Assembly (NCBI GenBank): GCA_900318335.1
Contig: ONKF01000033.1
Coordinates: forward strand, 1-45,895
DNA length: 45,895 nt
Origin: an uncultured Prevotellaceae bacterium
Lineage (GTDB): Bacteria > Bacteroidota > Bacteroidia > Bacteroidales > Muribaculaceae
Direction: 5' to 3'
Shown here: positions 2,875 to 24,133 of the stretch, in pieces
Position numbering within the stretch: the first letter of the stretch is position 1
How the letters are laid out: every line of letters starts with the position of its first letter
Program-made: the position numbers and the translations under genes
The notes under the pieces: model-generated
Told to the model about the DNA's origin: nothing
Seen by the model: only the letters and a program-made list of their open reading frames with translations
The model's database searches: none

Positions 2875-2911
2875 ATGCCCCAGCTTCATTGATAAGTTGA
2901 AGTCGGGGCAT
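2875..2911 (-). terminator. Terminator hairpin after the ATPase gene
   Basis: On the minus strand ATGCCCCGACTTCA pairs with TGAAGCTGGGGCAT around a 9-base loop. It follows the stop of the regulator-tail fragment at 2916-3013 and so would end transcripts from the ATPase gene. It is one of four related hairpins in the window. Confidence 0.65.
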
Positions 2912-2915
2912 CGTT

Positions 2916-3013
2916 CTATCCGTAGTTCAAGAGGGCGGTGAGCCGCTCCCGCACAAGCGAGAGCACGTCCCGCATCTCGTTGAGCGTAGCCTTGCCGATG
3001 TCATCGAGCATCT
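2916..3013 (-). pseudogene. Detached C-terminal tail of a WYL-type regulator
   Basis: Read on the minus strand this gives EMLDDIGKATLNEMRDVLSL followed by VRERLTALLNYG and a stop. It is nearly identical to the last 32 residues of the regulator gene at 10878-11291 and in an intact frame. The fragment begins 2 bp after the stop codon of the ATPase gene and carries the same downstream hairpin as the full gene. A 31-codon ORF could start at its internal ATG (MLDDIGK). It may be the stump of a regulator paralogue disrupted by the ATPase cassette, or part of a repeated 3' cassette. Confidence 0.75.
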
Positions 3014-3015
3014 CT

Positions 3016-4299
3016 TTACAATCCAAGCCCGAGACTCCAGTCGTATACTGGTTGGACTTTTATTGCGTAGCCCGAGTCTTGAATGAGATTGTTTTCATGA
3101 TCGGTCAACAGCAGCAGATCGTTACAGCCTGTTTGTTTAGCCGCAAGCAAAAGCCCCTTGATTTCACGTTTCTTTGTCTTTTCTGCCGAGATGTCATAAG
3201 ATACTTGAATTGCTTGGATGACTTTGTTCTTCTCGCATACAAGAAAATCACACTCTCCAGAACGTTCATTCAAGTAATAGATATCAAGTCCACTCATCTT
3301 GCATTTGCGCATCAAGTGAATAAGCACAATGGTTTCAAGGCGATGACCGAGGTTCTCACCTGCAAAGGCATTATCCCGCTGGTCCATCATTGCCACGTCA
3401 ACTGCATAGACTTTTTCCTGTACCGATCTAACTTTGCTCTTTTGGGAATACTTCTTCACGCCAATCAACAAATAAGCCTTCTTTAGATAATCCACATAAT
3501 TTTTAGCTGTGTGATCAGACTTGAAATGGAAAATATTGGCTAAGTCTGAAGCAACAATAATCGCAGGACAGATGTTCAACAGATGATGAGCAAGATTCTC
3601 AAATGCCGCTTTATATGCAATGTTGTATCTTTGCTCAATATCTCGCTTCAGAATGTTGTCTACTAAGTTTTTTACATAGTTCTTGTTATCCTTAATTGAT
3701 AACAGTTCAGGAAAACCGCCCTGTCTTGAATAATCGTCAAATGCTGCCCTCCGAAATGCTTCAGCCTTAGTGGTTTTTTTATCAATATCCACTCCTTTCA
3801 TATCACAATACTCCCTAAATGAAAACGGGAATAATGGTATTTCCTTATTTCGGCCCGAAAGGTGAGTGGCTAGTTCCCCGCTCAATAGTTTTGCGTTAGA
3901 ACCCGTGACTATGACGTGCATCTTTTTCCTGAGCATACGATTCACGAAGAGGTGCCATCCCTCAATATTTTGTATCTCATCAATAAAAAGATATTTAAAA
4001 TCACCATAGATTTTGTATAAGATCTCAAGGACATCATTCAATTGGGAAACTTCGATATTCGCTAATCGTTCATCATCGAAATCAACATAGGCAAATTTCA
4101 CATCTTTGCTTTGTAGTACTTGACGACAAAGCGTTGACTTACCGCTGCGCCTCACTCCGATGACTACTTGAGCCTGCGTACTTGACAAGTCAACAAGTTC
4201 TTCCTCGCATCGATAGCAAATGATATCTTTTGCCCGATCTTCTAATTCTTCTTGCTGATCAGTAAGAATGAATTCTATTGTTCTTTTATCTATTAACAT
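3016..4299 (-). CDS. AAA ATPase with DUF4143 (archaeal-type ATPase family)
   Basis: A cytoplasmic P-loop ATPase. Walker A is GVRRSGKSTL near residue 50, and Walker B is YLFIDEIQN near residue 105. A sensor-like segment IVTGSNAKLLSGELATHLSG is followed by the family's central helices. The C-terminal DUF4143 region contains SGECDFLVCEKNKVIQAIQV, whose D...QV pattern resembles a degenerate PD-(D/E)XK fold. The frame extends to an ATG at 4320, but a -7 box at 4322-4329 would place the transcript start at about that point. I therefore take the next ATG at 4299 (MLIDKRTIEF), giving 427 residues. These ATPases are common in Bacteroidales, often in many copies, and their function is not settled. Codon use is more AT-rich than the cobalamin genes, which suggests transfer. 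Confidence 0.88.
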   Translation of the reverse strand: MLIDKRTIEFILTDQQEELEDRAKDIICYRCEEELVDLSSTQAQVVIGVRRSGKSTLCRQVLQSKDVKFAYVDFDDERLANIEVSQLNDVLEILYKIYGDFKYLFIDEIQNIEGWHLFVNRMLRKKMHVIVTGSNAKLLSGELATHLSGRNKEIPLFPFSFREYCDMKGVDIDKKTTKAEAFRRAAFDDYSRQGGFPELLSIKDNKNYVKNLVDNILKRDIEQRYNIAYKAAFENLAHHLLNICPAIIVASDLANIFHFKSDHTAKNYVDYLKKAYLLIGVKKYSQKSKVRSVQEKVYAVDVAMMDQRDNAFAGENLGHRLETIVLIHLMRKCKMSGLDIYYLNERSGECDFLVCEKNKVIQAIQVSYDISAEKTKKREIKGLLLAAKQTGCNDLLLLTDHENNLIQDSGYAIKVQPVYDWSLGLGL

Positions 4300-4321
4300 A
4301 ACTGCATTCGCTTCTAACATG

Positions 4322-4329
4322 CAAAGATA
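4322..4329 (-). promoter_or_regulatory. -7 box of the ATPase gene
   Basis: Minus-strand TATCTTTG matches TAnnTTTG exactly and abuts the upstream-most ATG of the frame. Transcription would begin near 4318. No clear -33 TTG is visible; the first of the phased 16-bp repeats occupies that region instead. Confidence 0.65.
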
Positions 4330-4345
4330 TAAAGAATTTTGATGA

Positions 4346-4441
4346 AATGCGATATTTTACAAATTTTATGCAAATGAAATGCGATATTTTACAAGTTCTG
4401 ATACTTTTGAATGCGATATTTTACAGTTTTTTCGGAATTTG
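4346..4441 (-). repeat. Three 16-bp repeats phased at exactly 32 bp upstream of the ATPase promoter
   Basis: AATGCGATATTTTACA occurs perfectly at 4346-4361, 4378-4393 and 4410-4425, with unrelated 16-bp spacers. The spacing equals about three helical turns, so three bound protein units would lie on the same DNA face. The nearest copy covers the -33 region of the ATPase promoter. This is the layout of an operator or activator array. A fourth perfect copy starts the array at 1622. Confidence 0.85.
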
Positions 4442-4463
4442 CACAGATTGTGTACTGAAAAAC

Positions 4464-4497
4464 GCCCCGGCTTCATGATAACAAGTGAAGTCGGGGC
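4464..4497 (-). terminator. Terminator hairpin downstream of the NRPS gene
   Basis: On the minus strand GCCCCGACTTCA and TGAAGCCGGGGC form a 12-bp stem (one mismatch) around a 10-base loop, followed by GTTTTT. This is the best intrinsic terminator of the four family members. It lies about 190 bp beyond the NRPS stop codon on the same strand. Confidence 0.75.
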
Positions 4498-4503
4498 AAC
4501 GTT

Positions 4504-4539
4504 CTATCCGTAGTTCAACAGGGTTATGGGCCGCTCGCG
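4504..4539 (-). pseudogene. Short copy of the regulator tail (RERPITLLNYG-stop)
   Basis: The minus strand reads RERPITLLNYG and a stop, matching the last 11 residues of the regulator at 10878-11291 (RERLAALLNYG) in frame. It is followed by the same hairpin. Similarity stops abruptly at 4539, where a different dispersed repeat begins. It is not in frame with any larger gene. Confidence 0.65.
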
Positions 4540-4628
4540 CCTTTCAATATGTCAACTCTCAGTGTCAGCATGATAGCCTTTCGTTAAAAAATGGCCGCAA
4601 AATTCCACCTTTTCGCCGAAACCGCCAG
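4539..4628. repeat. 90-bp dispersed repeat, copy 1
   Basis: GCCTTTCAATATGTCAACTC and the following 70 bp match 12301-12390 at roughly 80 percent by eye. On the minus strand both copies can be read as LTLRVDILKG, but copy 1 has a stop in that frame, so it is probably not coding. It is fused directly to the regulator tail copy at 4504-4539. Confidence 0.65.
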
Positions 4629-4685
4629 ATTCCCAGTGGATTAATTCAATCTCAGCGACTTAGCATTAACTCAACAGCTGTTGCC

Positions 4686-7600
4686 CTAACTATTGAAATA
4701 ATCGAAGCCCACGATGGTGTCGACGAAGCGATGCACATAGTATCGAGCGGTGGTGGGCCATTGGAAACCATAGCGGTAGAGCACCTGCGTGGTGTAGTTG
4801 TTCTCGGTTTCTATCCAGCGCATTTGGTGGGTACTGCTCAGGTTGTAAGCCATCAACGGACGCAGCAGGGTGACGAGGTCGGGATTATCCATCATCCGTT
4901 CCAGAGCCTGCTGAAATTCGTCTCTCTCCACATGCTTCAATGTGATGCCAGCGTCAGCAAAGCCGTTCAGTATATCGGCAAAGTACGGGTGGTGAATGTT
5001 GTAAGGATGGAATACTGTACAATCCTTAGGGGTCGTAGCCAGCAACATGATGGCATGGGCAACATCGTCGATGGGCGAAAACTCGAAGGTCTCACTAAGT
5101 GCATCATAGGGCACCATACCAATGATGACGTAGGCTCGAAGCAATGCCAGGAAGTTGTTGGTATTGAAGTTGATTTGGAACTCGCCGTCCTTTTGACGGG
5201 CCGAGAGGTTGCCCACACGCATGATTTTGGCATCGAGACCGTGATTGAAAACGGCATCGAGCACCAGTTCCTCGGCCTTGAACTTGGAATAGACGTACTT
5301 GTTGGCGTCGATGTTCTGTCCGAGCCACAGATCCTGTTCGGTGAGCTTGACATCAGGTCCCGGCACACCATCGACACTCAGGCCCGCAATGCTGGTCGTA
5401 GAGATGTGGATGAGACGCGAACCGGAGCGCAGGCAAAAAGCGATGAGGTTGCGCACGCTCTCGATGTTGACCAGTTCGATGTCGTTACCGGCCGAGAAGT
5501 GTTTCACGTTGGCCACGCAATTAACAACGGTGAGGCCCTGGCAGTCGAGGGTGTCGAGGGCTCCGGGCTGGGTAACCTCAGCGGCAAAGGGGGTGACGCG
5601 CTCGTCGAGACGTTTGAGCGCTTCGTTGTCGCCAAAGTAATAGAAGAACATCGTCTTGAGGCGGCGCATCGGGTCTTCACCCCCATGAATGCGCAACGGG
5701 CAGAAGATGTGGCCGTCGTGCGTCGTGAGCAACTCGTTGAGGATGTGCATGCCCAGATATCCCGTGGCGCCCGTGAGCAATACGTCTCCAACGGGTTGAC
5801 GTTCTCCGTCAAGGAAGGCTTGCAGGTTGTTCCTCTTCAGTTGAGCGTTGATAGACGAGAGTTGCGGGTCTGCTGGTGTTGCCGTGTCATCGGCTTTCAC
5901 GCTTGGCTCACTACTCTTGGCTTTTATTTCATCACATTCTTCACTCTTTTCTTTCACAAGGGCAGCCAATGCTCGTGGCGTCTTTTGATTGAAGAGATCA
6001 TTAAAGACAATCTGCACACCATGCTTGCTGGCTTCCACGATGACCTTGATGGCGTTGAGGCTGGTACCGCCAATCTCGAAGAAATCGTCGAGGGCACCCA
6101 CCTGTTCAATGCCTAAAACCTCGGAGAAGATGCGGACAAAGAGCTGCTCGGTTTCACCTTCGGGAGCCACATAATCGATGCTGCGCTTCAGTTCGGGCAT
6201 GGGCAGGACCTTGCGGTTGATTTTCCCGTTGGGCGTCATCGGCATGGCATCGAGTCGCATATAGGTGTCGGGCACCATGTATTCGGCCAAGGATGACGCG
6301 GCAAGGGCGGCGCGGAGCGCTTCATCGTCGATGTCAGAGCCCTCGACCACGGTATAGTAGAGCACCAGATGCTCGTTACCCATCACTTTGCGCACCTCGG
6401 CGGCAGCCTGTCGGATGCCGTTGATGTTGAGCGCTTTGCTCTCAATCTCACCCAACTCGATGCGGAAGCCACGCAGTTTCACCTGCGTGTCGATACGACC
6501 CATGTACTCTATCTGCCCCTGCTCGTTCCAGCGGCAGAGGTCGCCGGTGTGGTACATGCGGACAGGACGCCCCCAACGATCGTGCTGCACGAACGGGCAA
6601 TCGACAAACGACTTGGCCGTGCGCTCAGGCAAGCGCCAATAGCCGCGCCCCACCTGCACGCCGGCAAAGCACAGCTCACCGGCCACTCCCTGAGGCACCA
6701 GGTTGCCAGCTGTATCGACAATGAAGTTCCAGTTGTTGGCCACGCTCTGGCCGATGGGTATGTTCTCGATGCGCTGGCCTGGAGGAATGCTATAGTAAGA
6801 CGTGTCGTCGGTACACTCGGTGGGGCCATAGACATTGATGATCTCAACGTGATCGCTATAGACGCCATCCATCTTCTCGCCGCCACCCGTGGTGAAGCGG
6901 ATGGGCAAGTCGTCAAAGGTGTTGAGCAGCAGGCAGGTCATCGCCGTAGAGTAGCCGCCGCCGGTAATCTGATGGTCAATGAGGAACTGGCGTATGGCAT
7001 TCAGATCCTTGCGAATCCCGGTAGGCATGATGTGGAATGAGCCGCCCAATGTGAGCACGGGGTACATGTCCTCGATGTGGGCATCAAAGGAGAATGAGCG
7101 GTGGCCGCTGATGCGGTCGGCTGCGGTCAATCGCTCCATGTCGATAACCACGGCTATAAAGTTGCGCAGGCCTGCCTGGTGGAGCATAGCGCCCTTAGGC
7201 TTGCCCGTAGAGCCAGAGGTGTAGATCATATAGGCCAGTCCGTCGGGCTGTGAGAGGTCAATAGCCCCCACCGGAGACGCGTCGCTCACCATGGCCATGA
7301 AGTCGTCGATGAAGAACGTGCGGGCCTGGGCAGTATCCAGGTTTCCTTCAGCCTGCTTGGCTGCCAGCACCTCGTGCGAGGTGATGAGCACCTTGGACTC
7401 AGAGTTCTCGAGCATATAGCTCAGTCGCTCGTTAGGGTATTCAAAGTCAAGGGGGGTATAGGCGGCACCGGCCTTGTGGATAGCCAATACCGACAGCGGG
7501 AATTCCTTGGTGCGGTCAAGCATGACGCAGACAAAGTCATCGGGCCGCACGCCGAATTCAATAAGCTGGTGGGCAAGCATATTCGAGTAGTTGTCCATCT

Positions 7601-9038
7601 CGCCGTAAGTCAGTTGGCTGTCTTTATCCACCACGGCAGGGGCATCGGGCGTGCGACGGGCCTGCTCGGTAAACAGGTTGGCAAACGTCTTACTCAGGTC
7701 AACATCGATGTCCTTGCCGGTTCCGATCTTGATGATGCGCTCAGCCTCATCGTCACTGACGATGCTGATGCTGTTGATGGGCTCATCGAGGCGGGCCATC
7801 ATCTGCTCCATGGTGGCCTTGATGGCATCGGCCATCATGCGCAAGGTCTTGCGATTGTTCATGGCCAGGCTCGACTCCATGCGTATATCGTAATACTCGT
7901 CGCCCCCAGCAGCGTCGCCTGCAACCTCGGCGCCCACAATAAAGATGTGCGCCAGCATATCATAGAACACGTCGCCACGGTCTTGCTGCACAAACGGGCA
8001 ATGCTTGTCGCTAAAGTGGTATTCCTCCTCCCATCCGGGCAGAGCGGTGAAATTGAACGAAATGCCTGGCTGCACGCCCAGGTCGCGGCAGAAGTGTGAG
8101 AACGGATAAGCCAGCTGCGAGAGCGTGGCCTTCATTTCGGAGTGAACCGAGGCGACATACTCACGTACGGTCTGCTCCTTCTGTATTTCCATCATGAACG
8201 GTATGGTGCGTACAAACATGCCATAGGCCTCGCGCACACGCGGGTCGCGACGTCCATGATAGATGGTGGTATAGGCCACTTTGTCCTCGCGCAGGATGCG
8301 GGCGAGCACATAGCTGAATGCTGCCTGGAATATCTGATAAGGTGCAAAGCCATGCTCCTGGCACCAGCCATCGACCATCGGCCTGCTGATGTAAGCCGAC
8401 TCCTGACCCATTTCGCCAACCGGATTCTCAGGACGGCTTGAGAGCGTGGCCAGGTCCATTCCGGCATATTTCTCCTTCATCACGCTCTTGGCCCGCTGGT
8501 ATTCCTCGTCGCCCAACCGTGCATACTCGTCGGCTGCCGCTTCCAGCATGCCGTATTCCTGCACGGGCAGGGGCTTCCCTTCCCAGGCCAGAGGCAAGTC
8601 GCGCTGGGGGAACAGCGTCAGGTAACTCGTGCCATCGGTCACCATGTGGTGGATGTCCACCAGCAGGTAGTTCTTTTCAGGTACTGTCACCAGTTCCGCC
8701 CTGATGAGAGGCTCGTCGCCCATGATGTCGAAGGGACGGCAGAAGCCGTGATGGGCATAGTCCTGGAAATCGGCTTCCGACATCTCGCGGCGCACGACAG
8801 TCAGTTTCTTGGCTTCATCAACATACTGTCGCGGCTCGCCATTCTCGTCAATGAGGAAACGCGTTTTCAGTTCTTTCCTTGCCGCGAAAATAGTTTGTAA
8901 GGCGGCCTCAACGCGGTCGAGGTCAAGGTCGTCGGTCAGGGGTACGATACAAGGGATATTATACTGCATCACTTGCGGATACTTCATGCAGTCATAGAAT
9001 ACTCCCAATTGTGATTGGAGTAAAGGGTACAGTTCCAT
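4686..9038 (-). CDS. Single-module NRPS: condensation, adenylation, carrier, terminal reductase
   Basis: A 1450-residue cytoplasmic megasynthase. The condensation domain spans residues 1-430, with catalytic HHMVTDG at 130-136. Adenylation spans about 445-950: YTSGSTGKPKG at 606-616, FDAHIED at 651-657, VYGPTE at 736-741, YHTGD at 829-833, and NGKINRK at 937-943. The carrier (peptidyl carrier/thiolation) domain has EIGGTSL with the phosphopantetheine serine at about 993. The terminal thioester reductase runs from 1085 to the end, with the NADPH loop TGATGYLG at 1089-1096 and the Y-x-x-x-K pair at 1248/1252. The expected chemistry is condensation of an acyl or aminoacyl donor with one activated amino acid, then reductive release as an aldehyde or alcohol. 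By-eye specificity residues read about D-A-E-G-F-T-V-D; the substrate is unknown. No phosphopantetheinyl transferase or second module is nearby. It is divergent from a C1 cysteine peptidase. Confidence 0.95.
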   Translation of the reverse strand: MELYPLLQSQLGVFYDCMKYPQVMQYNIPCIVPLTDDLDLDRVEAALQTIFAARKELKTRFLIDENGEPRQYVDEAKKLTVVRREMSEADFQDYAHHGFCRPFDIMGDEPLIRAELVTVPEKNYLLVDIHHMVTDGTSYLTLFPQRDLPLAWEGKPLPVQEYGMLEAAADEYARLGDEEYQRAKSVMKEKYAGMDLATLSSRPENPVGEMGQESAYISRPMVDGWCQEHGFAPYQIFQAAFSYVLARILREDKVAYTTIYHGRRDPRVREAYGMFVRTIPFMMEIQKEQTVREYVASVHSEMKATLSQLAYPFSHFCRDLGVQPGISFNFTALPGWEEEYHFSDKHCPFVQQDRGDVFYDMLAHIFIVGAEVAGDAAGGDEYYDIRMESSLAMNNRKTLRMMADAIKATMEQMMARLDEPINSISIVSDDEAERIIKIGTGKDIDVDLSKTFANLFTEQARRTPDAPAVVDKDSQLTYGEMDNYSNMLAHQLIEFGVRPDDFVCVMLDRTKEFPLSVLAIHKAGAAYTPLDFEYPNERLSYMLENSESKVLITSHEVLAAKQAEGNLDTAQARTFFIDDFMAMVSDASPVGAIDLSQPDGLAYMIYTSGSTGKPKGAMLHQAGLRNFIAVVIDMERLTAADRISGHRSFSFDAHIEDMYPVLTLGGSFHIMPTGIRKDLNAIRQFLIDHQITGGGYSTAMTCLLLNTFDDLPIRFTTGGGEKMDGVYSDHVEIINVYGPTECTDDTSYYSIPPGQRIENIPIGQSVANNWNFIVDTAGNLVPQGVAGELCFAGVQVGRGYWRLPERTAKSFVDCPFVQHDRWGRPVRMYHTGDLCRWNEQGQIEYMGRIDTQVKLRGFRIELGEIESKALNINGIRQAAAEVRKVMGNEHLVLYYTVVEGSDIDDEALRAALAASSLAEYMVPDTYMRLDAMPMTPNGKINRKVLPMPELKRSIDYVAPEGETEQLFVRIFSEVLGIEQVGALDDFFEIGGTSLNAIKVIVEASKHGVQIVFNDLFNQKTPRALAALVKEKSEECDEIKAKSSEPSVKADDTATPADPQLSSINAQLKRNNLQAFLDGERQPVGDVLLTGATGYLGMHILNELLTTHDGHIFCPLRIHGGEDPMRRLKTMFFYYFGDNEALKRLDERVTPFAAEVTQPGALDTLDCQGLTVVNCVANVKHFSAGNDIELVNIESVRNLIAFCLRSGSRLIHISTTSIAGLSVDGVPGPDVKLTEQDLWLGQNIDANKYVYSKFKAEELVLDAVFNHGLDAKIMRVGNLSARQKDGEFQINFNTNNFLALLRAYVIIGMVPYDALSETFEFSPIDDVAHAIMLLATTPKDCTVFHPYNIHHPYFADILNGFADAGITLKHVERDEFQQALERMMDNPDLVTLLRPLMAYNLSSTHQMRWIETENNYTTQVLYRYGFQWPTTARYYVHRFVDTIVGFDYFNS

Positions 9039-9070
9039 AATGATTTATTACTTAAATATTATACTCTTTC

Positions 9071-9104
9071 ATACTTTAAAGTATATGTCACAGCTACAAA
9101 GGTA
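9071..9104 (-). promoter_or_regulatory. NRPS promoter with leader palindrome
   Basis: On the minus strand a -7 box TACCTTTG lies at 9097-9104, putting the start near 9090 and leaving a leader of about 50 bases. Inside the leader, ATACTTTAAAGTAT at 9071-9084 is a perfect 14-bp palindrome, a candidate operator just downstream of the transcript start. No matching regulator can be assigned. Confidence 0.55.
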
Positions 9105-9184
9105 GTGAATTCTTGCAATACACACTCGTTTTGCCTCTATTATTTTGCCTCACGTCCTGAATTGATGATGAACAGTCCGATATC

Positions 9185-9340
9185 TTGCGCAAGGTAGGCG
9201 GCGTCTCAACAATGCTCAAATAAATTTGGCATTGTCCTCGGCTTGCACTACCGTTCGCCTTGCGCAAGGTAGGCTGCGCCTCGGGAATGCAAGAAAAATT
9301 GATTTTTCTTGCCATTCCGCTCGGCTTGCACTACCTTTGC
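9185..9340 (+). repeat. Two tandem copies of a promoter-bearing hairpin element
   Basis: Copy 1 (9185-9258) and copy 2 (9259-9340) share outer sequences: GCGCAAGGTAGGC, then GCGCCTC or GCGTCTC on the left, and TCGGCTTGCACTACC on the right. Their centres differ but each is self-complementary: CAATGCTCAAAT/ATTTGGCATTG in copy 1 and AATGCAAGAAAAAT/ATTTTTCTTGCCATT in copy 2. Copy 2 ends in a good promoter, TTG at 9309-9311, a 20-bp gap and TACCTTTG at 9332-9339, which reads toward the peptidase gene. In copy 1 the box is broken (TACCGTTC). Further copies lie at 23810-23926 and 24176-24244. Confidence 0.8.
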
Positions 9341-9407
9341 AGTCAAAGAAGCTATTAATCCTGCGCAAAGGCCATGAGCCGCGTGCAAAACCATTTTACA
9401 ACTTGAT

Positions 9408-10811
9408 ATGAAAAAAACCATCACACTTGCTCTGGCATTAGGCCTCGCCTTTGCCGGCTCAGCACAAGACCGTTCTCAGGGAGGTATCAGCCCCGACATG
9501 ATGCGCCAGATTGTCGCTACCTCGGCAACCCACCAAAACAAGGCCATCAGCAATGCCATGGCGACAAATTCCATCGACGATCTTGCCCGGAACTACCGCA
9601 ACAACAAGGTTACGGACACCCACTTCAGCATCGAGACGCCCAAACAGTCGATCCACAACCAGCGGCAGAGCGGACGCTGCTGGATGTACTCCAGTTTCAA
9701 CGTGCTGCGCGCTAACTTCGCTCGTCAGCATGGCGACTCCATCAATGTGGAGTTCTCTCATGACTACCTCTTCTTCTACGACCAGCTCGAGAAGGCCAAC
9801 CTCATGCTGCAAGGTGTGATCGATTGCGCTGATAAGCCCATCGACGACACGCGCGTGCAGTTCTTTTTCCACCATCCCATGAACGATGGCGGCACCTTCT
9901 GCGGCGCTGCTGACCTTGCCGAGAAATACGGCCTCGTGCCTGTTGAGGTACAGCCCGAGACCTATTCGGCCGAACGCACCTCACGCATGAGCCAACTCGT
10001 CGCTTCCAAGCTGCGCGAATTCGGACTGGAACTGCGTCAGATGGTCGCTGACAAAAAGAATAAAAAAGCCATCAACCAGCGCAAGACCGAGATGCTGGGC
10101 ACCATCTATTCCATGCTCTCACTCACGCTGGGCGAGCCCATCAAGTCGTTCACCTATGCCTTCCGTGATAAGAACGGCAAGCCCGTGGGCCCCACACGCA
10201 CCTACACCCCGCTGGAATTCTACCGCGAGACGGTGGGAGGACCCATCAACGGCACGTTTATCATGGCGATGAACGACCCTCGCCGGGAATACTACAAGAC
10301 CTATGAGGTGGAATGGGACCGCCACACCTACGACGGACACAACTGGCGCTACATCAACCTGCCCATGGAGGATATCGCCGCCATGGCCATCGCTTCGCTG
10401 AAGGATTCCACTAAGCTCTATGCCAGCTTCGACGTGGGCAAACAGCTCAACCGCGACAACGGATACCTCGCGCTCGACAACTTTGACTACGGCACCCTGT
10501 TTGGCACCACATTCCCCATGAACAAAGCCCAGCGCATTGCCACCTTTGACAGCGGCTCGACGCATGCCATGACGCTCTGTGCTGTCGATCTTGACGAGAA
10601 CGGCAATCCCATCAAGTGGAAAGTGGAAAACTCCTGGGGTGGTGATAGCGGTCACAAGGGATATATCATCATGACCAACGAGTGGTTCAACGAGTATTCC
10701 TTCCGCCTGGTAGTGGACAAGAAATACGTGCCGCAACACATCCTCAAGGCTGCCGAAACCAAGCCCGTCATGGTCATGCCCGAAGACCCCCTCTTCGGCA
10801 CCGATGACTGA
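9408..10811 (+). CDS. pepC: Secreted C1-family cysteine aminopeptidase (bleomycin hydrolase / PepC type)
   Basis: A 467-residue papain-fold peptidase of the C1B group, which removes N-terminal residues from peptides and in soluble relatives forms self-compartmentalised hexamers. A signal peptide (KKTITLALALGLAFAGSAQ) indicates export, as is usual for the Bacteroidetes members. The catalytic cysteine lies in QSGRCWMYSSFN (about residue 89). The histidine is in GSTHAMTLCAVD and the asparagine in KVENSWGGDSGHKGY, so the triad is complete. It is transcribed from the promoter in the tandem hairpin element upstream. It sits divergently beside an NRPS expected to release an aldehyde, a class of compound that inhibits papain-fold enzymes. 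A link between the two is inference. Confidence 0.93.
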   Translation: MKKTITLALALGLAFAGSAQDRSQGGISPDMMRQIVATSATHQNKAISNAMATNSIDDLARNYRNNKVTDTHFSIETPKQSIHNQRQSGRCWMYSSFNVLRANFARQHGDSINVEFSHDYLFFYDQLEKANLMLQGVIDCADKPIDDTRVQFFFHHPMNDGGTFCGAADLAEKYGLVPVEVQPETYSAERTSRMSQLVASKLREFGLELRQMVADKKNKKAINQRKTEMLGTIYSMLSLTLGEPIKSFTYAFRDKNGKPVGPTRTYTPLEFYRETVGGPINGTFIMAMNDPRREYYKTYEVEWDRHTYDGHNWRYINLPMEDIAAMAIASLKDSTKLYASFDVGKQLNRDNGYLALDNFDYGTLFGTTFPMNKAQRIATFDSGSTHAMTLCAVDLDENGNPIKWKVENSWGGDSGHKGYIIMTNEWFNEYSFRLVVDKKYVPQHILKAAETKPVMVMPEDPLFGTDD

Positions 10812-10835
10812 TCATTGGCCATAACAGAATAAACA

Positions 10836-10874
10836 GATGCCCCGACTTCAACTTATCCGTGAAGCCGGGGCATC
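10836..10874. terminator. Bidirectional terminator between the peptidase and regulator genes
   Basis: GATGCCCCGACTTCA and TGAAGCCGGGGCATC form a 15-bp stem with one mismatch around a 9-base loop. It lies between two convergent genes, 25 bp from the peptidase stop and 3 bp from the regulator stop, so it probably serves both. Confidence 0.75.
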
Positions 10875-10877
10875 GTT

Positions 10878-11291
10878 CTATCCGTAGTTCAACAGGGCGG
10901 CGAGCCGCTCGCGCACGAGCGAGAGCACGTCCCGCATCTCATCGAGCGTAGCCTTGCCATCGTCGTCAAGCATCTCGACAGCCTGCTTGAGCAGGCGGCA
11001 GTCCTCGTCGGTGAGGGGCATCTCGTTGATCGAGTAGTTGGAGTCGGCGTACCGGTAGTATATCTTGTCAAAGACCTCTATCGGGGCGTTGTAGCCCAAC
11101 TTGTCGGACCTCATGATCTGGAGGTCGCCCTGCACGGTCCGCACAGACACGCCCTTGGTTATGCCCTCCATCTCGTATAGGGCATCGGAGCATGCCTCCG
11201 TCAGGTCGTCTATGGTCCACAGACGGTACCTGTTCCGCAGGCAGCGGTCTATAGTCTTGTAGCGTATTAACGCATTCTTGTTTGCCGGCAT
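10878..11291 (-). CDS. Truncated WYL-type regulator (HTH region only)
   Basis: A 137-residue protein whose first 90 residues match the opening of Bacteroidetes WYL-domain regulators. These include MPANKNALIRYKTIDRCLRN, a winged HTH with SVRTVQGDLQIMRSDKLGYN, and YYRYADSNYSINEMPLTDED. Full-length relatives run to about 330 residues and carry a WYL ligand-sensing domain. Here the chain instead ends in a short helical tail (about residues 100-137) closing with LLNYG. That tail with its terminator is found detached at 2916-3013 and 4504-4539. The protein could bind DNA without sensing, or act as a dominant competitor of full-length paralogues. It lies downstream of the phosphoesterase gene on the same strand, 40 bp away. 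Confidence 0.8.
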   Translation of the reverse strand: MPANKNALIRYKTIDRCLRNRYRLWTIDDLTEACSDALYEMEGITKGVSVRTVQGDLQIMRSDKLGYNAPIEVFDKIYYRYADSNYSINEMPLTDEDCRLLKQAVEMLDDDGKATLDEMRDVLSLVRERLAALLNYG

Positions 11292-11331
11292 CTTTATGTG
11301 GTGTAATTGAATTGTCCATAATGTTTGTTAG

Positions 11332-11982
11332 TTAAAATGATGATTGCATTTGACTGGTTGTACGACTACTGATGATGTCGCGAATCTGATAGAATGAGAT
11401 GGACGTATAATTGTTGTTGTCAACACCCACGTCATATTGAGTCGCCATCAGCAGGGGCAGCCGTTGTTTATCCTTTTCCTTGCCCTGGCCGTTTCCTCGT
11501 GTATGCACATGGCCGAACAGTTGCCACACTTTGCCATGAGAGTCACCGTAGCTCAAGAAGGGATGGTGATTGAGGAAGATGGGCTGATTATCAATGACGA
11601 CGTACAACTCAAATGCGACTTGCTCGAAGCGTTCAAGCATTTCGGCTCTCAGGTGATAGATGTCGTGGTTGCCCACAACCAGCACAATCCTTCCGTTGAG
11701 CTGGTCAAGGAAACGGTTCCACACTTCAGCTCCGCCGAAAGCGAAATCGCCCAAGTGGAACACCAGGTCATTCTTGCCGACCACACGGTTCCAGTTCTCA
11801 ACGAGCGCCTGGTTCATCTCTTCAATGTCACCGAAGGGACGATTGCAGTGGCGCAGGATGGATGTGTGTCCGAAGTGGGTATCCGACGTGAAAAACACGT
11901 TCTTTCCCGAGAGCGCATTCCCGGGTTTCAATTTGCATGCCTGCATCAGGTGCAAGGCAATCGTGTCAAGTCTATTGTTCAT
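11332..11982 (-). CDS. Calcineurin-like metallophosphoesterase
   Basis: A 216-residue cytoplasmic protein with the full metallophosphoesterase motif set: DTHFGH (about 34-39), GDFAFGG, GNHD, NHHPFLSYG and GHVHTRG. These supply the dimetal site and catalytic histidine. The DTHFGHxxI and hairpin layout is like the small YfcE/phage-type phosphoesterases; the substrate cannot be told. It is the first gene of a likely two-gene unit with the truncated WYL-type regulator 40 bp downstream. The C-terminal 30 residues are polar and probably disordered. Confidence 0.88.
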   Translation of the reverse strand: MNNRLDTIALHLMQACKLKPGNALSGKNVFFTSDTHFGHTSILRHCNRPFGDIEEMNQALVENWNRVVGKNDLVFHLGDFAFGGAEVWNRFLDQLNGRIVLVVGNHDIYHLRAEMLERFEQVAFELYVVIDNQPIFLNHHPFLSYGDSHGKVWQLFGHVHTRGNGQGKEKDKQRLPLLMATQYDVGVDNNNYTSISFYQIRDIISSRTTSQMQSSF

Positions 11983-12084
11983 GATTCAACATTTTGTGCG
12001 CCACAGTCGGCGCTGGTTATTAAATATGGGCATCAGCCTCACATGACTCTAAACTGCTGCCACAGCGAGTATCAAAACAAGAAA

Positions 12085-12122
12085 AGTGGTTGGAATGTCC
12101 GCTTCTGGACTTTCCAACCACT
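12085..12122 (-). terminator. Terminator of the LRR-dockerin gene
   Basis: Minus-strand AGTGGTTGGAAAGTCC and GGACATTCCAACCACT form a 16-bp stem with one mismatch around a 6-base loop, followed by TTTTCTTGTTTTG. It lies about 310 bp past the stop of the gene at 12432-14372. The intervening 300 bp hold only the dispersed repeat at 12301-12390. Confidence 0.75.
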
Positions 12123-12300
12123 CTGATTAGTCTGTAAGAGTAGTATCTCTAATTTTAGGATGATTACACGTTTACATCACGGTAGGACTGTAATTAGGTC
12201 GTGTAATCCGGAAAGCCGTTGAGCTGATATGTGGTACGTTTAACGCTTGAGGGACAGAAATGGCATAGCCTTCAAAGCTGGTTTTGCTCTGAATGCTGTT

Positions 12301-12390
12301 GCCTTTCAATATGTCAACTCTCAATGTCAGCACAACTGTACTTTCCTTAAAATTGGGCGCAAAATTACACCTTTTCAGCGAAACCGCCAA
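12301..12390. repeat. 90-bp dispersed repeat, copy 2
   Basis: Matches 4539-4628. On the minus strand it includes TAATTTTG, a fair -7 box that is degenerate in copy 1. A 72-codon open frame runs through it (12172-12390, minus) and reads LTLRVDILKG in the shared part. That frame is interrupted in copy 1, so I do not call it a gene. Confidence 0.6.
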
Positions 12391-12431
12391 ATTTCTGACG
12401 AATTATTTGATTTCTGGTTTCATCCAGTGGG

Positions 12432-14372
12432 CTAATTCGCCAACAGCATATCAATCAGTGCGGTCACATCAGCGATATCGACTTTTCCATCTGCATTCAA
12501 GTCAGAATTGGCGATATTGACAGCTGATGTGTCTTCGGTAAGCAGCACGTCAACCAGTGCGGTCATGTCGCTGATACTCAATCGTGAATCCCCGTTCACA
12601 TCACCCTTGTTGATGGGGAGGATAGTGGCGAAACGGCTCCAGCAGTCTGTTGATTTGTAAGCTTCCAATGCCTCTTCGGGCACATAGAGTACAGTCGTGT
12701 TGTAGTTACTGAACGTGTTGGCATTGGTCATCGTGGGGGGTGTTACGGCATAACTAATCAGGGATTTCAGCTTGCGGCAGTAGTGGAATGCGTTTTCTCC
12801 GATTGAGGTAACCGTCGCGGGAAGAGTGACAGACTCGAGGCTTTCACACAGATAGAAAGCATAAGCCGCGATTGTCTTCAATGACTTTCCAAAAGTCGCT
12901 TTAGCCAAGCTTCGGCAGTCATAAAATGCGCTATGGCCAATAGTGGTTGCCGAATCACCTAATGCAATCGATTGTAGTTCGTAGCAATCTTCAAACGCTT
13001 CACTTCCAATGATTTTAACCGACTTGGGGATGACAGTGTTTTTGCAACCGTAGAGCAATTGGTCGGTAGCGGTTTCAATAATCGCATTGCAACTGTCGCG
13101 AGAGTCATACACGGGGTTATCACTATCGACCGTCATCGAGGTCACGGCTGAACAGCCATTGAAGGCATCATGCTCTATAAAAGTGACAGAATTGGGAATA
13201 TGGATTTTTTTCAGGCTACGGCAAAGCCAAAAAGCGATCCACCCGATTTTTTTGACGGAATTGGGTATGGGCATGGAATCCACGTTGATTTCTTTGAAAG
13301 CGGCATCACCGATGACCTCGACGGTGTTAGGGATAACCGTAGTCTTGCACCCCTTGACCAGGGTGTTGGTTGATGTCTGGATAATGGCGTTGCAGTTATC
13401 GCGGGAATCAAAGTAAGGATTATCGTTGACGACGTTGATTGACGTTAACCGATAGCAATCATCAAATGCTAACCTGTCAATTTTGGCAACCGACCTGGGG
13501 ATGGTTAATGACAACAACCCGGTGCAATAGGAAAATGAATTGCCCACGATGTCGGTTACTGAATTGCCGATAGTTACCGTTTGCAATCTGTCACAACTAT
13601 AGAATAAAAAGGATTCAAGCCTTTTTACAGAGTTGCCGATAATTACAGAAGTCAGGCCGTCGCATCTTGAGAACACACTGCCGCCGAGGTCCACAACCGA
13701 GTCGGGAACCCTCGCGGTGACTAAACTCCTGCAGTCCTGAAATGCGGCTGCCCCAATACTCGTTACTGATTCTCCGATAGTGACCGAAGTCATATATGAG
13801 CAATGGGAGAACGCATACTTCCCGATGGTGATAACGCTGTTTGGTATTGTGGCAGAGGTAAATCCATCACAGTTAAAGAACACATGATTCTTGATCTCGG
13901 TCACTCCTTCAGGAATAACCAGTTCCGTTATCTCTTGATCGTTCAAGAACAGATGGCGGGCATAGAAGGTGGGATTGTCGACATAATCGGTGAAGTTCAC
14001 ATTGCACCATGACTCAATGCTTGAGATGTGCACCTCGGCCAACGTGTTGCAATTACTAAAAGCACTGTCGCCCACTGTAGTAATGGTCGAGGGAATGGTA
14101 ATCGACCGCAAGGTGGTGGTCTCTTTAAAAGCGTTGTTGGCGATTGAAGTCACGGTGTAGGTAATGCCTTGATTTGTCACAGTTTCGGGAATAACCGCCA
14201 CACTCAATTGGGAATACCTGGGAGATGAATTGTTTTCACTGGTTACCGCAACTTCGGTTTCATTGACGATATCATAGGCGATACTGTCAACCATGAAATC
14301 ATAGGCAGATGCTGAAATTGAACACCATACCATTACAAGTAATACGAGAAATTTAAGTTTTTCCTGTTTCAT
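12432..14372 (-). CDS. BspA-like leucine-rich repeat surface protein with C-terminal dockerin
   Basis: A 646-residue exported protein. It has a signal peptide (KLKFLVLLVMVWCSISASA), then a beta-rich opening. The body is made of BspA/LRR_5-type repeats (motifs such as VTSIGAAAFQDCRSLVTARV, recurring every 22-24 residues from about 60 to 560). The last 55 residues form a dockerin type I module: GDVNGDSRLSISDMTALVDV and SDLNADGKVDIADVTALIDM, each a calcium-binding F-hand. BspA-like proteins mediate adhesion and protein binding. In Bacteroidales such dockerin-like ends occur outside true cellulosomes and their partners are mostly unknown. It has its own -7 box and terminator, so it is monocistronic. 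Confidence 0.93.
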   Translation of the reverse strand: MKQEKLKFLVLLVMVWCSISASAYDFMVDSIAYDIVNETEVAVTSENNSSPRYSQLSVAVIPETVTNQGITYTVTSIANNAFKETTTLRSITIPSTITTVGDSAFSNCNTLAEVHISSIESWCNVNFTDYVDNPTFYARHLFLNDQEITELVIPEGVTEIKNHVFFNCDGFTSATIPNSVITIGKYAFSHCSYMTSVTIGESVTSIGAAAFQDCRSLVTARVPDSVVDLGGSVFSRCDGLTSVIIGNSVKRLESFLFYSCDRLQTVTIGNSVTDIVGNSFSYCTGLLSLTIPRSVAKIDRLAFDDCYRLTSINVVNDNPYFDSRDNCNAIIQTSTNTLVKGCKTTVIPNTVEVIGDAAFKEINVDSMPIPNSVKKIGWIAFWLCRSLKKIHIPNSVTFIEHDAFNGCSAVTSMTVDSDNPVYDSRDSCNAIIETATDQLLYGCKNTVIPKSVKIIGSEAFEDCYELQSIALGDSATTIGHSAFYDCRSLAKATFGKSLKTIAAYAFYLCESLESVTLPATVTSIGENAFHYCRKLKSLISYAVTPPTMTNANTFSNYNTTVLYVPEEALEAYKSTDCWSRFATILPINKGDVNGDSRLSISDMTALVDVLLTEDTSAVNIANSDLNADGKVDIADVTALIDMLLAN

Positions 14373-14795: not shown

Positions 14796-14809
14796 CGGCC
14801 GTAAATGAT

Positions 14810-14977
14810 GGTAATCGGGTGGCTGGAGCCACCTCGATGCAAGGGAATCCGGTGAGAGTCCGGAACTGTACCTGCAGCTGTAATCCCCTCAAACACAGGG
14901 TCTGCTTACTGAATGTCACTGGCCGTTAACATGGCTGGGAAGGCAAAGCAGACTGGGGAAAAGTCAGAAGACCTGCC
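14810..14977 (+). promoter_or_regulatory. Cobalamin riboswitch
   Basis: The aptamer core can be read directly. It has an opening stem (GGTGGCTGGAGCCACC), then AAGGGAATCCGGTGAGAGTC and CGGAACTGTACCTGCAGCTG, TAATCCCC, and the B12 box region GTCAGAAGACCTGCC at about 14962-14977. The outer pieces GGGAAGGC and CTGGGGAAAAGTCAGAAGAC are in the expected order. Family knowledge: binding of adenosyl- or methylcobalamin folds this RNA so as to shut down expression of uptake and synthesis genes. A downstream stem ATAGTTG/CAACTAT at about 15010-15030 could belong to the expression platform. It is the only B12 riboswitch I can find in the window. Confidence 0.95.
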
Positions 14978-15103
14978 ATTCAGTTTATAGTTAATAGTTA
15001 ACAACTGATAGTTGGTTTCGCATCAACTATGACTGGGAACTTGAGGCTACAGACTAATAACTATTTAGTACGTTCACTCAGGAACAGGTGTGACGGAAAG
15101 CAA

Positions 15104-23582: not shown

Positions 23583-24133
23583 ATGATACTGACAATAAAC
23601 GGAAAGCAGGCAGCGCTGAAGAAGGGGTCTTCGATAGAGTATGTATCGGAGAACCGCATCTTCACCGATGCCGACGACTACAGCATGGAGATTGAACTGC
23701 CCCTGGCAGACTGTCCGCAGAACCTAGACATCTTCGGGATGATCACCCGCAAAGACGTCGATGCAGGCGACATCTTCTTCGATGCGGTGCTGCAGGACAC
23801 CAACTTCTTCAAAAATAGAGCAAGCCGAATGCAGAGTCAAGCTTGCTTGAACTCTGTTAAGGCGTAGAAAATATGTGCAAGCCGAAAGCAATGCTAAGTT
23901 TACTTAAGCATTGCTAAGGCGCAGCCAAATTTATGCAGACCTACATCGACGAGCTTGACCTGGGCAAGTGGCCCAGCATCTACCCCGACAATTCGCCTAC
24001 CGGCGGCGGGGCCCAGCCAAGACCAGGGGAAGAAGTGACCTACGCCTCCCCGGTGCAGCTCTGTGGCAGGACGGAGGACTACACCGCCTTGCCGTGGGTC
24101 AACAACTCCAGCGGCAACCTGCAGAATTTTATG
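23583..24133 (+). pseudogene. Phage tail-region gene fragment, copy 2, interrupted by two hairpin elements
   Basis: Reads MILTINGKQAALKKGSSIEY to DTNFFKNR at about 23817, then loses sense in two inserted hairpin elements. It resumes at 23934 with MQTYIDELDLGKWPSIYPDN and EDYTALPWVNNSSGNLQNF, ending near 24133. There is no coding sense after that. It is a broken and truncated gene, the right edge of the phage debris. Confidence 0.75.
23810..23926 (-). repeat. Two tandem promoter-bearing hairpin elements, reversed, inserted in phage gene
   Basis: Read on the minus strand each unit has GGCTGCGCCTT or GCCTT, a variable hairpin, then TTCGGCTTGC. The centres are AGCAATGCTTAAG/CTTAGCATTGCT and CAGAGTTCAAG/CTTGACTCTG. 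The unit nearest 23810 ends in TATTTTTG (23810-23817), a valid -7 box. These are the same family as 9185-9340 in the opposite orientation. Confidence 0.75.

Follow-up and report, generated by a model that had tools for sequence, protein, structure and literature searches.

We analysed a stretch of 45,895 bp from an uncultured Prevotellaceae bacterium (hereafter the window, meaning the whole stretch at its full length), which is contig C54 of a 3.15-Mb draft genome of 70 contigs. We found that the window encodes a nonribosomal peptide synthetase (NRPS) of a single module, with a condensation (C), an adenylation (A), a thiolation (T) and a thioester reductase (R) domain in this order. Its catalytic residues are intact, its A-domain code is invariant among complete standalone relatives, its C domain falls into a clade of its own, and no other C domain was found in the genomes of two relatives. 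In addition, the NRPS lies beside a divergent gene for a C1B cysteine peptidase, and this pairing is not conserved. We give an even chance to the reading that the NRPS is a self-contained reductive module whose product is a basic amino aldehyde or alcohol, either N-acylated or self-condensed, with the peptidase outside the pathway; the substrate, donor, product and role in this reading are deduced from sequence.

In such a module, the A domain would load a basic amino acid (Lys over Arg) onto the module's own carrier domain, and the specialised C domain would acylate it with a donor that does not come from another NRPS. This donor would most likely be an acyl group on coenzyme A (acyl-CoA) or on acyl carrier protein; failing that, it would be another copy of the same aminoacyl-carrier. 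Reduction by the R domain would then free the product as an amino aldehyde with an N-acyl (or dipeptidyl) group, or as the alcohol. Such basic aldehydes inhibit proteases in the manner of leupeptin, so the product would most likely serve to block proteases outside the cell, or as a signal, within the gut community.

Architecture, relatives and predicted substrate

The NRPS gene and its domains are as follows.
4686..9038, minus strand: monomodular NRPS, C-A-T-R, 1450 aa (Pfam, NCBIfam and motifs; standalone-type relatives 74-91% identical)
7731..9032, minus strand: condensation domain, motif HHMVTDG (second His, Asp and Gly the same in all 30 copies; separate clade)
6201..7700, minus strand: adenylation domain, code DAEGTGVDDK, predicted to take a basic amino acid (column mapping checked on EntF)
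5943..6164, minus strand: thiolation (carrier) domain, phosphopantetheine site GGTS (Pfam and motif)
4692..5798, minus strand: thioester reductase domain, TGATGYLG and YxxxK (Pfam, NCBIfam and motif)

Pfam placed Condensation at residues 3-435 of the 1450-aa open reading frame (ORF), AMP-binding at 456-801, PP-binding at 967-1028, and NAD_binding_4, of the thioester reductase type, at 1088-1330. The family matches of this protein, like those of the peptidase, were far above chance level. The order of the four domains and their intact residues are those of an NRPS module with a terminal reductase, and the residues, in what we take to be the catalytic motifs of each domain, were invariant in all 30 complete standalone copies, the window's included. 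Thus, the original prediction of one NRPS module ending in a thioester reductase was borne out, and aldehyde or alcohol chemistry can fairly be expected of such an enzyme.

Relatives of the standalone NRPS were collected in a scan of genome contigs, and 79 loci (L handles) were kept. Among them, 37 were of the standalone type or unresolved fragments (30 with a C domain and 7 fragments). Some of the 7 fragments may be terminal modules of larger NRPSs, and L113, L132 and L134 look so by identity or neighbours. The reading frame of L105 is broken. Furthermore, less than 3.5 kb was in view on at least one side of the 7 fragments and of L064, L069, L073, L075, L076, L079, L112, L114 and L119. Meanwhile, 37 genomes of the genus (G handles) were searched, together with 24 genomes outside it. 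Genomes G007, G011, G017, G019, G027 and G032 correspond to loci L119, L124, L069, L141, L129 and L063, respectively, so the counts from loci and genomes are not independent.

The standalone NRPS was found in 7 of the 37 genus genomes at 80-100% identity, in two of the seven in pieces. A further NRPS match of 30-47% identity, whose type was checked in only some cases, occurred in 29 of the 37. Of 393 genomes sampled from the order, six, including the window genome, had an NRPS match at E 1e-230 or better; beyond these six, G393 showed 61% identity across residues 4-932 and the remainder 36-38%. All matches in a plasmid search were NRPSs below 60% identity. The contig titles of the relatives name uncultured Prevotellaceae, Bacteroidales, Bacteroidaceae, Muribaculaceae and similar, and the animal or organ, where a title gives one, is a ruminant or a ruminant stomach. 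From these titles, we infer a ruminant-stomach habitat for the window bacterium too. Among the 12 of 21 papers listed by a literature search, none could be recognised by title or abstract start as treating the standalone module family, and the letters DAEGTGVDDK matched no paper in the collection searched. A rumen survey counts 5,346 NRPS clusters, and the window-type family is not named in the passages seen (PMC8241843).

The code DAEGTGVDDK was exact in 72 of 142 A domains, three more end before the last position, and one is a one-letter variant. All 30 complete standalone copies carry it. As a control, the same mapping gave DVWHFSLVDK for E. coli EntF, which we take to be the published serine code of that enzyme. 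The window's code is acidic, with Glu at position 3, Asp at positions 8 and 9, and Ala at position 2. In the solved ornithine-activating PosA, position 3 of the code is a Glu that binds the side-chain amine, and an Ala in position 2 is associated with Lys; the same paper cautions that the code is degenerate (PMC10522769). Taken together, Glu 3, Ala 2 and the two Asp residues would point to a basic substrate, with Lys likelier than Arg.

The condensation domain and the source of its donor

In the C-domain tree, the first domains of multimodular NRPSs, their internal domains and the 30 standalone domains formed three separate clades. The standalone clade has a branch length of 1.25, and the deeper nodes of the tree are weakly supported. 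By profile comparison, the standalone C domains were closest to the internal ones (33% identity, E 8e-58, against 24% and E 7e-41 for the first domains), and the final stretch ahead of the A domain is common to standalone and internal C domains. On this likeness, the standalone module appears to have come from a terminal module that became detached and whose C domain was altered later.

Furthermore, the A-T-R part of the window NRPS belongs to the same family as the terminal modules of di- and trimodular NRPSs from the same scan. Such NRPSs ending in a DAEGTGVDDK A-T-R module occur in L088-L140 (for example, L090 at 3797-14278 and L106 at 6863-14284). Many of them adjoin a MATE-type exporter gene (family F2, 31 clustered loci; named by eye from one sequence). 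The terminal modules of these MATE-linked NRPSs of the same Bacteroidales share the A code and the A-T-R family with the window NRPS, mostly at about 60-66% identity. However, they are preceded by at least one module in the same protein, and their C domains belong to another clade. The DAEGTGVDDK-ended multimodular NRPSs are predicted to make acyl-peptidyl basic aldehydes, and they are perhaps stronger protease-inhibitor candidates than the window gene.

The original prediction called the window NRPS an orphan. This holds locally. Outside the DNA on which that prediction was based, a separate dimodular C-A-T-C-A-T-R NRPS lies on contig C27 of the window genome (L149, 7987-15246; codes DAMFSGLVFK and DAQSRGCVAK). 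Its neighbours are genes of the F3 and F5 types, a MATE-type exporter and a candidate phosphopantetheinyl transferase. L150 and L151, like L149, combine a dimodular C-A-T-C-A-T-R NRPS with a SpoIIE-like phosphatase, an outer-membrane protein and a MATE-type exporter, and both also have a STAS protein (all by eye). The SpoIIE-like and STAS genes near these NRPSs are a possible partner-switching regulator. In L068, a SpoIIE-like phosphatase (F3), a STAS protein (F8) and an outer-membrane protein (F5) lie around a standalone module (by eye).

A detached terminal module might work in trans behind another assembly line or carrier, for example behind the dimodular NRPS of the window genome. The A-T-R part shared with di- and trimodular terminal modules is consistent with this, and in L072 and L080 only 22-23 bp lie between a dimodular NRPS and the standalone module behind it. 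However, in L072, L080 and L083, the multimodular NRPS ahead of the standalone module has its own reductase, and so does the dimodular NRPS of the window genome. In addition, no docking extension was seen, and the C domain starts within a few residues in most complete copies. The two genomes described next, in which no other Condensation domain was found, also argue against action in trans, and we consider it quite improbable.

Genome-wide, no Condensation-domain protein other than the standalone module was found in G007 and G011. Thus, the module's own carrier is the sole NRPS carrier seen there. No loading module precedes the C domain, so the donor must come from elsewhere, and the earlier proposal of an external donor agrees with these two genomes. 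The same finding would suit an iterative module, in which two copies of the protein hold the same basic residue on their carriers, the C domain couples the two residues, and the R domain frees the dipeptide as an aldehyde, maybe on the way to a pyrazinone. The C domain is closest to internal C domains, which accept carrier-bound donors, and this too speaks for iteration. However, the strong divergence of the C domain (the branch of 1.25) suggests an altered donor, and iteration is in our view an unlikely, though serious, alternative to a module fed by an acyl donor.

With regard to possible acyl donors, a fatty-acid-type carrier protein was seen by eye in both G007 and G011. Phosphopantetheinyl transferase family matches were found in 7 of 7 genomes checked. 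Further small carriers were also noted by eye. On contig C27 of G007, surface-sugar genes surround two carriers and an AMP-binding gene. Among the carriers of G011, some have a radical-SAM gene nearby, and others an acyltransferase and an FkbH-like gene. A surface-sugar locus of the window genome holds a 77-aa carrier, related to the G007 carrier, next to a KAS III-like gene. These small carrier proteins were rejected as donors, as G007, G011 and the window genome have no common set of them, with the 77-aa carrier shared with G007 remaining. A shared partner carrier across the module-bearing genomes is unlikely. Most likely, primary metabolism would supply the donor as an acyl group, or another copy of the protein would present it on its own carrier.

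Donor typing by profile against solved structures was not discriminating, with TycC at the top for standalone, first and internal C domains alike; the searches with first and internal profiles ran at stricter cut-offs, so that weak matches are absent from those results. Furthermore, the profile of N-terminal C1 domains was led by largely the same solved entries as the standalone profile. Thus, this test discriminates little. An AlphaFold model of the C domain, built with 18 close sequences, reached a mean pLDDT of 47.9 and was set aside as too poor.

Several observations weigh against the reading of a self-contained module. First, the standalone C profile scored the carrier-accepting TycC, Txo1 and BacC above 7c1h and 4jn3, which we take to be starter-type C domains, and this speaks against a plain acyl-CoA starter. 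Second, G007 and G011 are drafts of 90% and 93% completeness, and a partner may have been missed. Third, the 77-aa carrier of the surface-sugar locus is common to the window genome and G007, as action in trans would have it, and none was seen in the stretches of G011 that were read. Fourth, exporter and regulator families stand beside the standalone module in only a few relatives. Finally, a 10-residue code is unable to distinguish Lys, Arg and an unusual basic residue.

The neighbouring C1B peptidase

The features beside the NRPS are as follows.
9408..10811, plus strand: C1B peptidase (bleomycin hydrolase / PepC family), 467 aa, probably exported, judged to be outside the system (Pfam and catalytic residues)
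9039..9407, no strand: intergenic stretch of 369 bp (homology-block ends)
3016..4320, minus strand: AAA_14/DUF4143 ATPase between a 191-aa gene and the NRPS (absent, with the NRPS, from the corresponding site in G036)

The peptidase matches Pfam Peptidase_C1_2 (PF03051, E 5.6e-127) over residues 39-462 of 467, aligned to positions 15-437 of 438 in the model. The Cys in QSGRCW, the His in STHAMT and the Asn in VENSWG are presumably its catalytic residues. It also matches solved bleomycin hydrolases and aminopeptidase C. With its domain-wide match and its Cys-His-Asn set, it is a complete member of family C1B, as had been predicted. The earlier claim of secretion stands as probable, from an N-terminus that is hydrophobic and signal-peptide-like by eye. 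The classical bleomycin hydrolase and aminopeptidase C enzymes are cytosolic. Thus, the window peptidase resembles them in its nearly full-length family match and in Cys-His-Asn, but differs in a probable signal peptide, by which it would be exported.

The peptidase was found in 31 of the 37 genus genomes, always as a single match (E 1e-20 or better), and in 7 of the 24 genomes outside the genus. It was present in 6 of the 7 genus genomes with the NRPS and in 25 of the 30 without it (Fisher p = 1). The exception among the seven is G027, which has the NRPS and gave no peptidase match. With one copy per genome, there is no spare resistant copy of the kind that a self-resistance cluster would hold.

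The two start codons in the window are 369 bp apart, so the close divergent starts of the original prediction were correct. The NRPS and the peptidase might thus form one system, with the peptidase as a self-resistance factor, target homologue or maturation partner. Peptide aldehydes do inhibit serine and cysteine proteases (PMC10548850). In addition, no more than about 3 kb separates the two genes in 6 of the 10 closest loci (at least 89% identity; the window and five others), which exceeds random placement in a 3-Mb genome and counts against a peptidase outside the pathway. This proximity likely reflects a shared, shuffled chromosomal region in one clade. Among all 37 standalone-type or fragment loci, the peptidase was within 10 kb of the NRPS in 5 (L065, L066, L069, L112 and L141), all close relatives with differing layouts. 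When only the 21 loci with flanks of 3.5 kb or more on each side are counted, 2 have it this close. The peptidase lies downstream and convergent in L065, L066, L112 and L141, and upstream and divergent in L069 and the window. In G007, both genes are less than 2 kb from contig ends, and they could be linked there.

The surroundings of the peptidase also speak against a single system. In several NRPS-free relatives, its neighbours come from the same families (N2, N4, N6, N8, N9, N12, N15 and N18) in a changed order, and L063 and L085 have the NRPS amid some of these families with the peptidase not in view. In other relatives, the peptidase stands amid unrelated genes (for example, L161, L162 and L169-L175). 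G036 shows an NRPS-free site, where the 191-aa gene (N15), the peptidase and a 137-aa gene (N6) are consecutive; the N15 and peptidase homology blocks are about 80 bp apart there, versus 7.7 kb including the NRPS in the window. In G021, the peptidase adjoins N4, whereas in L065 and L066 the NRPS lies between them.

Similarly, NRPS-side homology stops at 9039-9069 in seven relatives, and peptidase-side homology starts at 9186-9276 in ten. The sole exception is L069, which has the window's layout, with homology from 9088 on and about 0.7 kb of additional sequence between this point and the NRPS block. Thus, each gene has its own ends in most relatives. A shared divergent promoter was judged unlikely, as the homology blocks stop inside the gap in every relative read but L069. 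A 73-aa ORF in the gap (9094-9315), considered as an MbtH-like or carrier gene, was rejected, because its only counterpart among the clustered loci was a second copy of the window's own stretch. NRPS and peptidase identities between genomes run roughly parallel (91/94, 90/96, 90/93, 89/95 and 80/80%), which fits vertical descent, loss and rearrangement.

Therefore, the pairing was not found to be conserved: the NRPS usually stands without the peptidase, and the peptidase stands beside other genes in most relatives, the pattern by which the original prediction was to be refuted. With its single copy, NRPS-independent occurrence and changing sides, the proposed role in self-resistance, as target homologue or in tailoring did not hold up, and we regard one joint system as very improbable. 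The peptidase is probably a genus-typical exported aminopeptidase and an incidental neighbour outside the pathway. Thus, a divergent gene pair in one genome is weak evidence for a pathway.

Repeats were also seen around these genes. Two short repeated elements stand in tandem upstream of the peptidase (9184-9338), also in NRPS-free relatives such as L158, and position 23875 has a similar element that differs by two mismatches. Repeats of 39-56 nt between genes occur at 1757, 2877, 4465 and 10839; they flank the DUF4143 ATPase gene and also follow the peptidase. In addition, a 117-nt sequence ahead of the ATPase gene duplicates, at 90% identity, the surroundings of the 3' end of the 137-aa gene (2898-3014 versus 10860-10976). 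The 39-56-nt repeats and this copy may be joints of local rearrangement.

Elsewhere in the window, 12432-14372 on the minus strand encodes a BspA-type leucine-rich-repeat protein with a C-terminal dockerin domain. A cobalamin riboswitch (14803-14994) opens a block for vitamin B12 synthesis and uptake (14803-41394). This block includes two TonB receptors flanking a CbiK protein, CbiG, CbiD/CbiJ, a FecCD permease and a binding protein, and also CobS, CobU, a CobT-type transferase, CbiA-type amidotransferases and an adenosyltransferase.

Comparison with known systems and possible meaning

Among the 25 NCBIfam scores shown, the best was to AusA pyrazinone synthetase (NF047350), with 607.3 of 2500 bits. 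The MxcG model (NF038078) gave 377.9 bits against a cut-off of 2300, with protein residues 4-1443 aligned to positions 5-1434 of 1442. Both scores are under the cut-offs, so the window NRPS belongs to neither family by the curated rule. Gut dipeptide aldehydes and pyrazinones have been described (PMC8210680, PMC12327764). The NRPSs of this kind, like AusA, resemble the window NRPS in the terminal reductase and the gut setting. However, AusA is dimodular (PMC8210680), and the window NRPS has one module. Fungal one-module synthetases that work as a pair have also been described (PMC13278392).

The myxochelin synthetase MxcG has the same four domains in the same order at full length. It loads lysine and releases the aldehyde reductively (PMC8400222), and a basic amino acid is predicted here as well. 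The window gene might therefore be a C-A-T-R enzyme of this type, joining aryl acids to lysine as a siderophore, and the end-to-end alignment would agree with this. However, the score is far under the family cut-off, the window comes from Bacteroidales and not from myxobacteria, and no aryl-acid activating partner was recognised among the 15 neighbour families, to which that search was confined. We give a siderophore of this type hardly any weight.

If the substrate prediction is right, the closest chemistry would be that of argininal aldehydes of the leupeptin, livipeptin and aeruginosin type, where a reductase makes a basic C-terminal aldehyde. The livipeptin enzyme has no C domain and relies on a tRNA-dependent transferase (PMC10548850), and the argininal aeruginosin line has several NRPS proteins (PMC3765200); in contrast, no such partners were recognised here.

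Tentatively, and at clearly less than an even chance, we propose that the window NRPS represents a family of single-gene reductive synthetases in ruminant-associated Bacteroidales, with a new C subtype and derived from a detached terminal module, which would make a leupeptin-like basic aldehyde without partners, from an acyl donor or by self-condensation. Rumen proteolysis is a loss of feed protein. If the substrate prediction is true, ruminant Bacteroidales have genes for basic aldehydes of amino acids or peptides, some standalone and some multimodular, and a native rumen protease inhibitor would be of practical interest. Furthermore, a lone C-A-T-R protein as the only condensation enzyme found in a genome would offer a compact system of a single gene for direct tests of which donor a C domain takes.

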